DNA of 61,631 nucleotides. Source: Flavobacteriales bacterium. Lineage in GTDB: Bacteria > Bacteroidota > Bacteroidia > UBA10329. The DNA lies in the NCBI GenBank assembly GCA_021739625.1, contig JAIPBJ010000011.1:1-61631 (forward strand). The letters run 5' to 3'. The notes below the pieces were generated by a model. The model made no database searches and was not told where the DNA came from. It saw nothing but the letters and a program-made list of their open reading frames with translations. Positions 12,560 through 61,432 of this stretch are shown here, piece after piece. The position numbers were made by a program, and so were the translations under genes. Every line of letters starts with the position of its first letter. Position 1 is the stretch's first letter.

Positions 12560-12912
12560 GCTTTTGATCAGCCTCAGGGCACAGACCCTGATGTTTGTAG
12601 GAAAGAAGCGCAGCCCCGTCACAGCATGACGCTCACAATGGCACTCTGGTCACCCACCTCATGGTCGTCCATGAATAGGTGGGCATGATACTCCCGCTTT
12701 TCGGGCACGCCCTCCGCAAGATTGGGGCGCGTGTCGATGAACGGGCTGCGGGCGTCTTGGCCGTGGAAAATGCACTTGGCATACAGCGTGGTGCTGCTCG
12801 CGGTGCATTTCATATAGTGGAAGGCCAATGGGTGTCTTTGGCATCTCCCTGTTCACTATAGACCCTCAATAAAACCTCTTCCCGCTTTTCGCCTTGTCCA
12901 TAGCGGCCCAAT
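12560..12912. other. Gene-poor stretch, one doubtful minus-strand ORF
   Basis: No family is recognised here. On the minus strand 12619-12813 encodes 64 residues from an internal ATG (MKCTASSTTLYAKC...), with protein-like segments such as FHGQDARSPFIDTRP and EYHAHLFMDDHEVG; the frame is closed by a TGA shortly upstream. It could be a small gene or the remnant of a longer one. Confidence 0.35.
12619..12813 (-). CDS. Doubtful small ORF or gene remnant
   Basis: A 64-residue frame (69 if a TTG at 12828 is used) ending ...VGDQSAIVSVML. Composition and the polar, structured-looking middle (HGQDARSPFIDTRPNLAEG) are more protein-like than typical shadow frames, but I recognise no family. There is no -7 box in front of it and no neighbour in the same direction close by. 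It may be a broken C-terminal piece of a lost gene. Confidence 0.3.
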   Translation of the reverse strand: MKCTASSTTLYAKCIFHGQDARSPFIDTRPNLAEGVPEKREYHAHLFMDDHEVGDQSAIVSVML

Positions 12913-13203
12913 TGTGTTCGGGAAGGGGCAACCTGTGTTCAGGAAGCCTCAACCTGTGTTCGGGAAGCCTCAACCTGTGTTCAGGAAGGGTCAACCTGTG
13001 TTCGGGAAGGGTCAACCTGTGTTCGGGAAGGGTCAACCTGTGTTCGGGAAGGGTCAACCTGTGTTCAGGAAGGGTCAACCTGTGTTCGGGAAGGGTCAAC
13101 CTGTGTTCGGGAAGGGTCAACCTGTGTTCAGGAAGAGGGCAACCGTGTTCGGGATAGGTCAACCTGTGTTCGGGAAGAGGGCAACCGTGTTCAGGAAGGG
13201 AGT
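12913..13203. repeat. Tandem array, 14 copies of a 21-bp unit
   Basis: Ten copies of exactly 21 bp, then copies of 22, 20 and 22 bp and a final partial copy. Each unit contains TGTGTTCRGGAAG and most continue GGTCAACC; R alternates irregularly between G and A. The first three and last four copies diverge, the central seven are nearly identical. Both strands stay open in several frames because 21 is a multiple of three, but the frames have no start context and no terminal sequence beyond the repeat, so I treat the array as non-coding. There are no spacers between units, so it is not CRISPR. Confidence 0.95.
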
Positions 13204-25851: not shown

Positions 25852-26103
25852 GCTGGAACTAAGGATTGTATAGGTCTTACTAAGGAGAACAGGGGTCTTT
25901 AGAAGGAGAACAGGGGTCTTACTAAAGAGAGCATGGGTCTTTAGAAGGAGAACTGGGGTCTTTAGAAGGAGAGCAAGGGTATTTAGAAGGATAGAAGGGG
26001 TCTTTAGAAGGAGAGCAGGGGTCTTGGGAAGGAGATCATGGGTCTTGGCATGGAGAGTATGGGTCTTAGCATGGAGAGCAGGGGTCTTGGCAAGGATAAC
26101 TGG
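25852..26103. repeat. Tandem array, 11-12 copies of a second 21-bp unit
   Basis: Eleven copies of exactly 21 bp start at 25873, each with GGTCTT (one GGTATT) at its head and mostly GGTCTTTAGAAGGAGARCAG in full form; a degenerate copy precedes them (25852-25872). The first three copies alternate ACTAAGGAG and TAGAAGGAG, the last four share GGCATGGAG or GGGAAGGAG. There are no spacers, no unit resembles the array at 12913, but the period is the same. The 183 bp between the peptidase stop and the array hold no gene that I can see. Confidence 0.95.
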
Positions 26104-26250
26104 CGAGTCGGAAAACGGGTGTGTGACGCAGGAAAGCAAGACCGAGGGAATGAAATGGGCTGATATGGCAAGTTGATATTCGATAATCCCGTTTGAAAAT
26201 GGAGAATATAGAATGACAGGGACGAGAAACCTATTTATATATGAGTTCTG

Positions 26251-26289: not shown

Positions 26290-26538
26290 ATGAGACGGAT
26301 AAGCAAAAAGGAGGCTGAAAAGCTGAAGACACAGATGGGTGGAAAGCGTTCGCGGGTGCGGGCGGAGATTGAATTTTTGGAGGTGGGGGATATCATGCTG
26401 CTTGAGCGCCAGGATTGGACCCAGACGACACACGCGCCAACGCGGATTGTGCAACAGGTGGAGATTGCGTTGAAGAGGAAGTACACCTGCGAACGGCTGA
26501 TCGATAGTACAGGGTGGGTGATTGAGCGGAAGGAGTAG
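26290..26538 (+). CDS. Small unknown protein, paralogue of the one at 60800
   Basis: An 82-residue basic protein that I do not recognise. It aligns with the 81-residue product at 60800-61045 over its whole length with one single-residue gap and about 20 identities: EA..L near residue 8, L.VG(D/E) at 30-34, DW at 42-43, T at 47, LKR around 61, R....D..GW...R at the end. No signal peptide, membrane segment or Cys pair. A good promoter supports it being a real gene. It lies downstream of a 21-bp repeat array and upstream of TAGAGACG palindromes, exactly as its paralogue does. The basic, compact character would suit nucleic-acid binding, but that is inference. Confidence 0.7.
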   Translation: MRRISKKEAEKLKTQMGGKRSRVRAEIEFLEVGDIMLLERQDWTQTTHAPTRIVQQVEIALKRKYTCERLIDSTGWVIERKE

Positions 26539-26945
26539 CTGCAAGCCATTAGCTGCAAGGTCCGATTGTTGAAACCGTGGGGAAGTGGACTCAGGGATCC
26601 TTTGACAGGCGCAGGGACGATCAGTGCAACAAGCAGTTCGCTCCCGCTGGTCGGTTGGGACTGAAGGGACAGGCGGCACACCTGCTGAGTCTATTTCTTC
26701 GGGGTCAATGCCGCAGGTGTGGGTGTCATCAGCGAACCGGCCAGCATGGTGTGCTGGTAGGGGATAAGTAGGGAACGATAAGGCGGAAGACCTCGGACGA
26801 AGCGTGCCACGCACCTTACTGTCCGCGCCTGACGCGAGCTACAGCGCATGTTCAGAACTCTGTACGTCCTCTCTGAGAATATTGGAGCGCGTACAAAATT
26901 CTCTACAGCTGGAAGAACATCCCCTGTGGCACAGGCAACATCCTT
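26539..26945. other. Gene-free stretch downstream of the small unknown gene
   Basis: It begins with a repeated word TAGCTGCAAG (26536-26545 and 26550-26559). Minus-strand frames here have no recognisable product or promoter. Nothing else is seen before the palindromes. Confidence 0.5.
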
Positions 26946-26969
26946 TAGAGACGCCATTCGTGGCGTCTC
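26946..26969. repeat. REP-like palindrome, TAGAGACG family, variant
   Basis: TAGAGACGCCA, a TTCG loop, then TGGCGTCTC: a 9-bp perfect stem sharing the GAGACG...CGTCTC ends of the elements at 27019 and 61061 but with a different core. Confidence 0.7.
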
Positions 26970-27018
26970 CCGCACGCAACAGGAGATCGGTTCAGGAGAT
27001 GCGCAGTGCATCGGGCAG

Positions 27019-27046
27019 GTAGAGACGTTGCATGCAACGTCTCTAC
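27019..27046. repeat. REP-like palindrome, TAGAGACG family, 28 bp
   Basis: A perfect 28-bp palindrome; its left half is GTAGAGACGTTGCA. The central 26 bp are identical to the element at 61061-61086. It starts with GTAG, the tetranucleotide found at the base of REP hairpins moved by REP-associated tyrosine transposases. It lies five bases after the hisD stop codon and may also stop transcription. Confidence 0.8.
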
Positions 27047-59986: not shown

Positions 59987-60490
59987 ATGGCAGTAGATCC
60001 CAATCTCAACTTCAATTTCACCCTGCCCGACCAGACCGGGATCCATGCCGCATTGGATGGAGCGCTGCTGATCCTCAACATGCCGACCGTACCCTATGTC
60101 AACCTGACATTGGACGAACGGAAGAACACCCCGTCCATCAGTGCCGAGCGTCTGCCCTACGTGCATGATGCGGTGAACAACATCCTTCCCGTGTTCCCCA
60201 ACCTGGCCAGCCCCAGCATTCCACTGGCCCGCGCCACAACGCTGTTCGAACTGGTCACCTTCGTTCAATCTGTGGTGCCCAAGATGGCCGAGCTCAACGA
60301 CCGCCTCACCGATCTGGGCATCAATGCCGAGCATCTGGTCTATAAGAGTATGCTCGACAGTTACAATACGGCCAAGCAGCAGGAAGGACGCATGCCGGGG
60401 GCTGATGTGCTGATAGCGGCCATCGCCCCATTGTTCGAGGATCAGGGAAGCAATGCAGAGGAGCCGCCCATTGAAGGCCCCAAGCCATGA
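59987..60490 (+). CDS. Conserved hypothetical protein
   Basis: A 167-residue protein with no signal peptide or membrane segment. The pattern LTLDERKNTPSISAERLPYVHDAVNNI, then PLARATTLFEL and a C-terminal helical part with LLDSYNTAKQQ-like spacing, resembles a Bacteroidota family of uncharacterised proteins in which 'LTxEERxxLPKMGDK' is followed by an alpha-helical tail. Function unknown. A near-match -7 box (TAACTTCG) lies about 40 bases upstream and a strong terminator follows, so it is monocistronic. Confidence 0.75.
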   Translation: MAVDPNLNFNFTLPDQTGIHAALDGALLILNMPTVPYVNLTLDERKNTPSISAERLPYVHDAVNNILPVFPNLASPSIPLARATTLFELVTFVQSVVPKMAELNDRLTDLGINAEHLVYKSMLDSYNTAKQQEGRMPGADVLIAAIAPLFEDQGSNAEEPPIEGPKP

Positions 60491-60509: not shown

Positions 60510-60541
60510 AACGTCCCGCCCGAAAGCGGGACGTTTTTTTT
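60510..60541 (+). terminator. Rho-independent terminator
   Basis: A 10-bp stem AACGTCCCGC / GCGGGACGTT around CCGAAA followed by TTTTTTT. It ends the preceding hypothetical gene and separates it from the third 21-bp array. Confidence 0.9.
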
Positions 60542-60558: not shown

Positions 60559-60776
60559 AAAGGCTTCAGAACGGATCGAGAACGGTGTGAATAACAAGGT
60601 AAAGGGTGTGAATAGCACGATAAAGGGCGCGATGGGCACAGAGAAAGGCCTGAAGAACAGGCAGAAAGGAGTTCAGAACAGGGTGAAAGGCACTTTCCGC
60701 AGGCTGAATGGCGCATATCGCAGTCAGAAAGGTGCCACGATCAATCTAAAAGGTGCTTAAAAGGCACGCTAAAAGG
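60559..60776. repeat. Degenerate tandem array, about 10 copies of a third 21-bp unit
   Basis: AAAGG (or AACGG, AATGG) recurs every 21 bp, with one copy of 22 and a final one of 23; a typical copy is AAAGGAGTTCAGAACAGGGT. The units are far more diverged than in the other two arrays, so the period is visible only through AAAGG and partial AGAACAGG. No spacers. It directly precedes the paralogous small gene, the last unit ending 24 bp before its start codon. Confidence 0.75.
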
Positions 60777-60799
60777 ATCTTTACTTTAAATCCATCAAA

Positions 60800-61045
60800 A
60801 TGAAAATCTTCAATGCAGATGAGGCCGGAGACCTCCACCCGCTGGGAAGGGGAAGGTTCAACTGGCTCTACAAGCGTCTGATACTGCTACAGGTTGGCGA
60901 GGCCATTGCGATACGTTACACCGACTGGAACACCAAGACACCGCCCTACAAGACCATACGCACAGCGGCCAAGAACCTGAAACGCGATTTTGACTATGGC
61001 CGCAATCCCGATGGCAGTGGGTGGTTGGTGAAACGGGTGGGGTAA
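60800..61045 (+). CDS. Small unknown protein, paralogue of the one at 26290
   Basis: An 81-residue basic protein related over its whole length to that at 26290-26538 (about 20 identities, one gap). Shared positions include EA..L, LLQVGE / FLEVGD, DW at 42-43, LKR and R.P/I-D..GW...R. No family is recognised. A -7-like TACTTTAA lies 15 bases upstream but is poor. It sits immediately after the 21-bp array and 16 bases before a TAGAGACG palindrome. The paired loci suggest the gene and the repeats spread or act together. Confidence 0.65.
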   Translation: MKIFNADEAGDLHPLGRGRFNWLYKRLILLQVGEAIAIRYTDWNTKTPPYKTIRTAAKNLKRDFDYGRNPDGSGWLVKRVG

Positions 61046-61060
61046 GGACGTTGCCAAGGT

Positions 61061-61086
61061 TAGAGACGTTGCATGCAACGTCTCTA
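61061..61086. repeat. REP-like palindrome, TAGAGACG family, 26 bp
   Basis: A perfect palindrome whose left half is TAGAGACGTTGCA; identical to the core of the element at 27019-27046. It lies 15 bases after the stop of the small unknown gene. Confidence 0.8.
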
Positions 61087-61162
61087 CGGCAAATGGCCGT
61101 GCACACATCCCCCGCCATCGGTCTATATGCGAAAGCATACAATATCTATTCCGATTCACTGA

Positions 61163-61224
61163 ACTATATCTTTTCACATATAATATCCTACTTTTGCCCC
61201 GAATTATATCCCATCGCATATAAT
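61163..61224 (+). promoter_or_regulatory. hip promoter with two HipB operators
   Basis: Operator 1 (61163-61184) is ACTATAT-N8-ATATAAT; operator 2 (61203-61224) is ATTATAT-N8-ATATAAT, a perfect 7-8-7 inverted repeat overlapping the hipB start codon. They are exactly 40 bp apart. A perfect -7 box, TACTTTTG (61189-61196), lies between them. The half-site spacing of eight bases equals that of the known HipB operators, so autorepression is expected. Confidence 0.75.
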
Positions 61225-61432
61225 GAAAGGGCTGGCAGCATTCGTCAAGGAGCGTAGGAAGGAGGTGAGCCTCACCCAGGAGGAGTTTGCCGAGCGCGCA
61301 GGCGTGGCCCTCACCGTTATCCGCAAGATAGAGCAGGGCAAGACCAACCTCAATATGGACAAGGTGAATCTGGTGCTGCGCATGTTCGGCCACGAGCTGG
61401 CCGCTGTAAGTAGCAAGGAACTGAGGGGATGA
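61223..61432 (+). CDS. hipB: HipB-like XRE-family antitoxin
   Basis: A 69-residue helix-turn-helix protein: FVKERRKEVSLTQEEFAERAGVALTVIRKIEQGKTN is the XRE HTH, and NLVLRMFGHELAAV the dimerisation end. It lacks the C-terminal extension of longer HipB proteins. Its ATG lies in the right half of operator 2 and its stop overlaps the next start (ATGA), as in toxin-antitoxin operons. Being first is normal for HipB. Confidence 0.92.
   Translation: MKGLAAFVKERRKEVSLTQEEFAERAGVALTVIRKIEQGKTNLNMDKVNLVLRMFGHELAAVSSKELRG

Follow-up and report, generated by a model that had tools for sequence, protein, structure and literature searches.

In the genome of a Flavobacteriales bacterium, a degenerate array of 21-bp repeats and the small gene that follows it are a single repeated unit. 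The array is most likely a tandem site read by the protein that the neighbouring gene would provide, and it looks like this protein's private landing strip on the chromosome. More precisely, we give a probability of about 0.6 to a reading in which the cassette's protein of about 80 aa binds the adjacent array and autoregulates a promoter located between the array and the start codon. We infer the binding, and the resulting control of the promoter, from the observed pairing of arrays and genes, their spacing, the private motifs, the boundaries of the cassettes, the position of promoter boxes and the substitution of the small gene by HTH genes.

Layout of the two copies in the window

The window, i.e., the whole stretch of 61,631 nucleotides analyzed here, corresponds to contig 146 out of the 179 that make up a draft genome of 3.69 Mb. 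Copy 2 of the unit is found on its forward strand, downstream of a conserved gene of an unnamed family, called UpA (59987 to 60490), whose product of 167 aa is helical and acidic. A hairpin followed by a run of T (60511 to 60541), which on direct reading resembles a terminator, separates UpA from the array (60560 to 60748). The latter has eight units in strict 21-bp register (60581 to 60748), preceded by a ninth that is one base out of phase (60560 to 60580). Trailing AAAGG heads at half the spacing, about 11 bp, can be read directly in the gap between array and start codon (60749 to 60776). The small gene (60800 to 61045) encodes 81 aa of an unnamed family, with a predicted fold and a putative ability to bind the array. 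Copy 1, on the same strand, has an array of 12 units (25858 to 26114) with the motif AAGGAGAgCagGGGTCTT, which differs from that of copy 2, and a gene of the same family encoding 82 aa (26290 to 26538).

A sequence-only reading of this window had described array, paralogue and palindrome as one module. The copy 2 array is real, as it combines the 21-bp register with a maximal lag-21 score of 34.9, against 12.4 for the top of 1340 Markov-shuffled upstream regions. The 81-aa reading frame was borne out as well and has 12 more places in the genome. The distances given for copy 2 are those we find (about 24 bp from the last AAAGG head to the start codon, 15 bp from the stop codon to the palindrome), and the gap of about 175-186 bp between array and gene in copy 1 agrees with the 186 bp reported. 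The distance from the copy 1 stop codon to the palindrome does not: it is about 481 bp (26538 to 27020), instead of 407. Copy 2 is the more diverged array, as had been noticed, with a mean pairwise unit identity of 0.55 versus 0.71 for copy 1, and it is possible that it is also the older one. The idea that only the five-base head matters fails, since the conserved columns of the copy 2 units form two blocks (AA.GG.gc...ga.CAggctg).

The pairing of array and paralogue thus stood, being found in 51 of 56 members and duplicated together, while the palindrome did not belong to the module. The palindrome at 61061 to 61086, a perfect 26-mer, is a dispersed element. The source genome has ten exact copies of the pattern AGAGACG-N10-CGTCTCT, of which just 2 lie close to any of the family's 13 places, and sister genomes also have it away from the family. 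In the sister genome G003, the copy 2 gene has a counterpart with 84% DNA identity and the same upstream gene, and its array does not align. A related palindrome lies almost directly 3' of this orthologous gene, which suggests that the co-location at the copy 2 locus is old or recurrent. As a lead only, 4 of 8 palindrome places have a 21-bp array no more than about 0.7 kb away, and at L210 (1049 to 1612) three consecutive palindromes begin 11 bp past such an array. Further 3' of copy 2 we found a hipBA-like pair, in which an HTH_3 domain (61223 to 61432) is followed by the N-terminal domain of HipA, starting at 61429. Just 5' of this pair, a 24-bp direct repeat occurs twice, 40 bp apart (61161 to 61224); these repeats are likely HipB operators.

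A family of small genes paired with arrays

The family of the copy 2 protein, copy 1 included, occupies 13 places in the source genome. Members were identified in 32 of the 395 sampled genomes of the class Bacteroidia, spread over several families of this class, and related public records are metagenome-assembled genomes of Bacteroidia/Bacteroidetes. The proteins of about 80 aa are basic (mean net charge of +7). They have no family match in Pfam, NCBIfam or PHROGs, no HTH domain above cut-off in profile searches, no Rep initiator domain in Pfam or NCBIfam, and no match to solved structures by sequence or fold. Searches of plasmids, phages and IMG/VR gave no family match, and neither these proteins nor UpA matched the PADLOC models of anti-phage defence. 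The predicted model of the 81-aa protein (helix-strand-helix-strand-strand, pLDDT 82) has no match in the PDB at E<=0.001, including any solved DNA-binding protein. It resembles many uncharacterised phage proteins of 70-90 aa in BFVD, with a best E-value of 7.6e-4 and, for the best fold match, a probability of 1.0 and a TM of about 0.6. A conserved C-terminal domain characterizes the long single-copy relatives of 170-190 aa, which are array-free (L036-L041, L045, L047-L050, L052) and perhaps represent the housekeeping ancestor of the small proteins.

To quantify the association, we oriented 67 loci (56 short members with sufficient upstream sequence and 11 long single-copy relatives) and scored the 600 bp upstream of each start for lag-21 identity. 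A degenerate array with a period of 21 (or 42) bp precedes 51 of the 56 short members. The score exceeds the maximum of 1340 shuffles in 50 of them, and L061 adds a clean 42-bp repeat. The shuffles keep composition and neighbour frequencies, not phylogeny, and loci of related draft genomes, which are non-independent, were counted separately. The other five short members, which are truncated, weak or divergent, have no detectable array (L063, L072, L079, L080, L081), and the same scoring gave none in the 11 long relatives. In an open scan of lags from 6 to 63, 21 or its multiples came out as the top lag upstream, and not in downstream control regions, which had no array of comparable strength. 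The array is always on the 5' side of the small gene. Chaining of units gave 480 units and 429 steps, of which 422 measure 21 bp, six 22 bp and one 42 bp, a figure biased toward 21 because chaining penalises other spacings, which the open scan did not. A gene-linked array has about 10 units, and these are only about 57% alike despite their near-invariant spacing. A narrower alignment scan of contigs gave 6 loci, two of them from one additional genome, one with a 21-bp array and the other with lags of 33, 55 and 22 (multiples of 11). Period 22/44, or lags of 22, 33 and 55, were seen beside the same kinds of genes at L194, L196 and L218; these are near whole helical turns.

Recent within-genome duplicates reveal the boundaries of the cassette. 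In three pairs (L009/L011, L054/L065 and L066/L069), homology covers the array and the gene as one block, between unrelated flanks. The blocks begin at the array or within about 50 bp of it, the homology of L066/L069 extending about 50 bp further upstream, and stop at or near the gene end. Between L023 and L034, UpA has 94% DNA identity and the array and gene are far more diverged, as if the cassette 3' of UpA had been exchanged. Synteny was poor among the genomes compared for empty cassette sites.

Motifs, neighbours and possible roles of the array

Motifs were compared over any rotation and on both strands. In these comparisons, each copy has a repeat motif of its own, whose similarity to others tracks protein identity: among protein pairs that are 60-80% identical, motif similarity is above the 99% null in 79%, and below 50% identity it is at chance level. 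Clear matches between close relatives have the same orientation throughout. There is one exception, L001 and its likely ortholog L014, with 85% identical proteins and the same upstream gene; an alignment was obtained for their genes, with 84% DNA identity, and not for their arrays. Residue 51 is K in L001, L044 and L218 and E in L002, L014 and L032, and the array cores differ; the residue is a possible specificity determinant, on too few cases. We also scanned two motifs across their own genomes. That of L009/L011 is present solely in its two cognate arrays and the other in its cognate arrays and one further place, a solo array at C63, so that neither points to a wider regulon.

UpA is a recurrent neighbour, being immediately upstream in 22 loci. 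It has no matching solved structure in the PDB. The source genome has 3 UpA genes, all followed by array and small gene. A 21-bp array lies close on the 3' side of 14 of the 18 UpA homologues that lack the 80-aa gene, and arrays 3' of UpA often lie between convergent genes. At two of these array-bearing loci, L111 and L112, the next gene encodes an XRE-type HTH (HTH_3 match) with a coiled coil, and 13 of 46 relatives of this gene have an upstream 21-bp array, with L194 and L196 additionally having period 22. From this arrangement, HTH genes unrelated to the 80-aa family are seen to replace it behind UpA. The operator of a dimer is expected to be palindromic, and the units are significantly so (p<0.05) in 8 of 13 HTH-linked arrays. 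In the 80-aa family, whose units are asymmetric, this holds for 6 of 51 arrays (median p of 0.43). No other observation speaks as strongly for a protein that reads its array as this match between unit symmetry and the kind of neighbouring protein. Separately, 21-bp arrays lie directly 5' of genes of 214-245 aa at L121 (16016 to 17044) and L129 (11174 to 12147), one of which has a weak fn3 match; they belong to other unnamed families, which are possibly further users of such arrays.

The sequence-only reading had proposed that the array acts as operator or leader, of which the operator is now the most likely and the RNA leader is disfavoured. The -7 promoter box of Bacteroidetes, TAnnTTTG, is enriched in the interval from array to ATG, with 11 occurrences for 1.2 expected, and not within arrays, with 2 for 5.1 expected, although it is present in just 10 of the 51 loci. 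The copy 2 array and leader fold no better than shuffles (z of -0.69), and the array has no match in Rfam. Nor does the array resemble coding sequence, since stop-free frames amount to 0.89 versus 0.84 in column shuffles and the frame of the small gene is open across the array in 1 of 51 loci. Taken together, the shuffle-like folding, the lack of Rfam match and coding signal, and a promoter box downstream of the array speak for a site in the DNA rather than a leader in the RNA. A guide-RNA or CRISPR-like array has no support from the same folding and Rfam results, and no recurrent nuclease neighbour was seen beside the family loci. Phasing of A-tracts was also discarded, as a strong 10-11 bp A/T signal was not found inside the arrays.

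In the preferred reading, array and gene would form a self-contained cassette, whose basic protein would bind the adjacent array of about ten asymmetric units of 21 bp. With a protein bound at every second helical turn, all copies of it would come to lie on one face of the DNA. The bound protein would control its own promoter between array and start codon, resulting in autoregulation and possibly in a larger nucleoprotein structure. Each paralogue would have its own specificity, and copies would not cross-talk. Against an operator stand the five members without array, the mismatch of L001 and L014, the solo arrays and those between convergent genes, the small share of loci with a TAnnTTTG box, and a predicted fold that resembles no solved DNA-binding protein.

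Solo arrays are not rare. The window has one of 14 units that are 84% alike, intergenic and with no adjacent family gene (12905 to 13202). A survey of 374 kb of the source genome, picked independently of the family, revealed arrays with a period of 21 or 42 bp at about a dozen loci (L093, L095, L100, L141, L145, L146, L149, L151, L152, L155, L156, L159), and other periods from 12 to 59 were nearly absent, bar a few simple-repeat loci. This preference, together with the high homogeneity of several solo arrays, which resembles recent expansion, is what one would expect of neutral minisatellites generated by replication or recombination with a two-turn step, to which genes are merely adjacent. 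We regard this as very improbable, because 51 of 56 members have an array, always on the 5' side, and long relatives never do, because gene-linked units are about 57% identical yet exactly spaced, and because units are palindromic beside HTH genes and not beside 80-aa genes. The cassette could also be mainly a selfish or mobile element, in which the array would be a site for movement or amplification assisted by the protein. The solo copies, the three duplicate pairs with unrelated flanks, the apparent swap beside UpA in L023/L034 and the presence of as many as 13 places per genome fit such an element. However, the cassette has no recombinase, we noticed no terminal repeats or target duplications, and the searches of plasmids, phages and IMG/VR yielded nothing, which makes this improbable, if less so than minisatellites.

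The solo arrays and the UpA-linked arrays between convergent genes indicate that the operator role is not the whole story. The latter cannot serve as operators of a downstream gene, and about ten phased sites far exceed the needs of a simple repressor. The array may instead be a DNA-structuring or centromere-like site that the protein coats, as filament or anchor, with autoregulation secondary or absent. In line with this, two solo arrays share their motif with a gene-linked array elsewhere in the genome: L209 (G000:C63), where the small gene is missing, with L004 (0.90), and L227 (G008:C15) with L025 (0.94). Most solo arrays have no motif in common with gene-linked arrays of their own genome, and the neighbourhoods, including the 22 UpA loci, have no recurrent NTPase-like cluster or partition partner, UpA being helical and without structural match. 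We thus consider a structuring site unlikely, although it is the most serious of these alternatives.

Comparison with known systems

We searched the literature and found no description of such cassettes of array and gene. It is tempting to see in them an undescribed class of self-addressed cassettes of Bacteroidia, a proposal that we hold at somewhat less than even odds. Each would pair a small protein that binds DNA with a private array of about ten sites exactly two turns apart. At least two unrelated folds would be represented among these proteins, and the cassettes would multiply, diverge in specificity, shed solo arrays and swap behind UpA. If the pairing is what it appears to be, it provides dozens of natural protein-array pairs in which a protein of about 80 residues and a DNA motif have co-diverged. 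As each array would be about ten variants of one site, the recognition code of an uncharacterised fold might be readable from sequence. The abundance of tandem repeats with periods of 21 and 42 bp throughout such genomes would then also have a first point of entry.

Among repeats described in Bacteroidetes, BrickBuilt of Porphyromonas gingivalis is a minisatellite MITE of intergenic short tandem repeats with promoter activity (PMC4596501). Our arrays resemble it in being short tandem repeats and in their Bacteroidetes host, but BrickBuilt units are 23 nt long, common to all copies and MITE-borne, and no cognate small gene is described for them (PMC4596501). The TAACTGA heptamers are direct repeats upstream of start codons, reported from some Bacteroidetes as well (PMC4679880); they are one fixed 7-mer, unlike the private 21-bp motifs of the family. 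The small phage proteins of BFVD (70-90 aa) have a predicted fold like that of the family, although by sequence the family matched neither PHROGs nor phage records. The alternative HTH genes of the slot, with palindromic units directly upstream, are similar to XRE/HipB-type autorepressors. The cassettes differ from these by having about 10 units at exact 21-bp spacing and, in the 80-aa family, asymmetric units and no HTH match. Plasmid iterons are directly repeated sequences, each spanning about two helical turns, beside the gene of the Rep protein that binds them. The family's repeats, also of about two turns, adjoin a small gene too, but there is no Rep domain or plasmid match, and the 13 places, distributed over the draft genome, are probably chromosomal.

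Another parallel in layout is with plasmid centromere systems, where the array of sites and the promoter region coincide. Plasmid centromere-binding proteins are encoded beside a tandem array of their own sites (review PMC9178275). As in omega/pSM19035 with its heptads, ParR/parC and TubR, the gene of a small putative DNA-binding protein lies beside a tandem array (51 of 56 members). Centromere binders have ribbon-helix-helix or winged-helix folds, from which the predicted fold of the family (model with pLDDT of 82) seems to differ, and no NTPase (ParA, ParM, TubZ) is adjacent. Also in contrast with plasmid partition modules, the family is probably chromosomal, has 21-bp units and comprises numerous paralogues that differ in their motifs.
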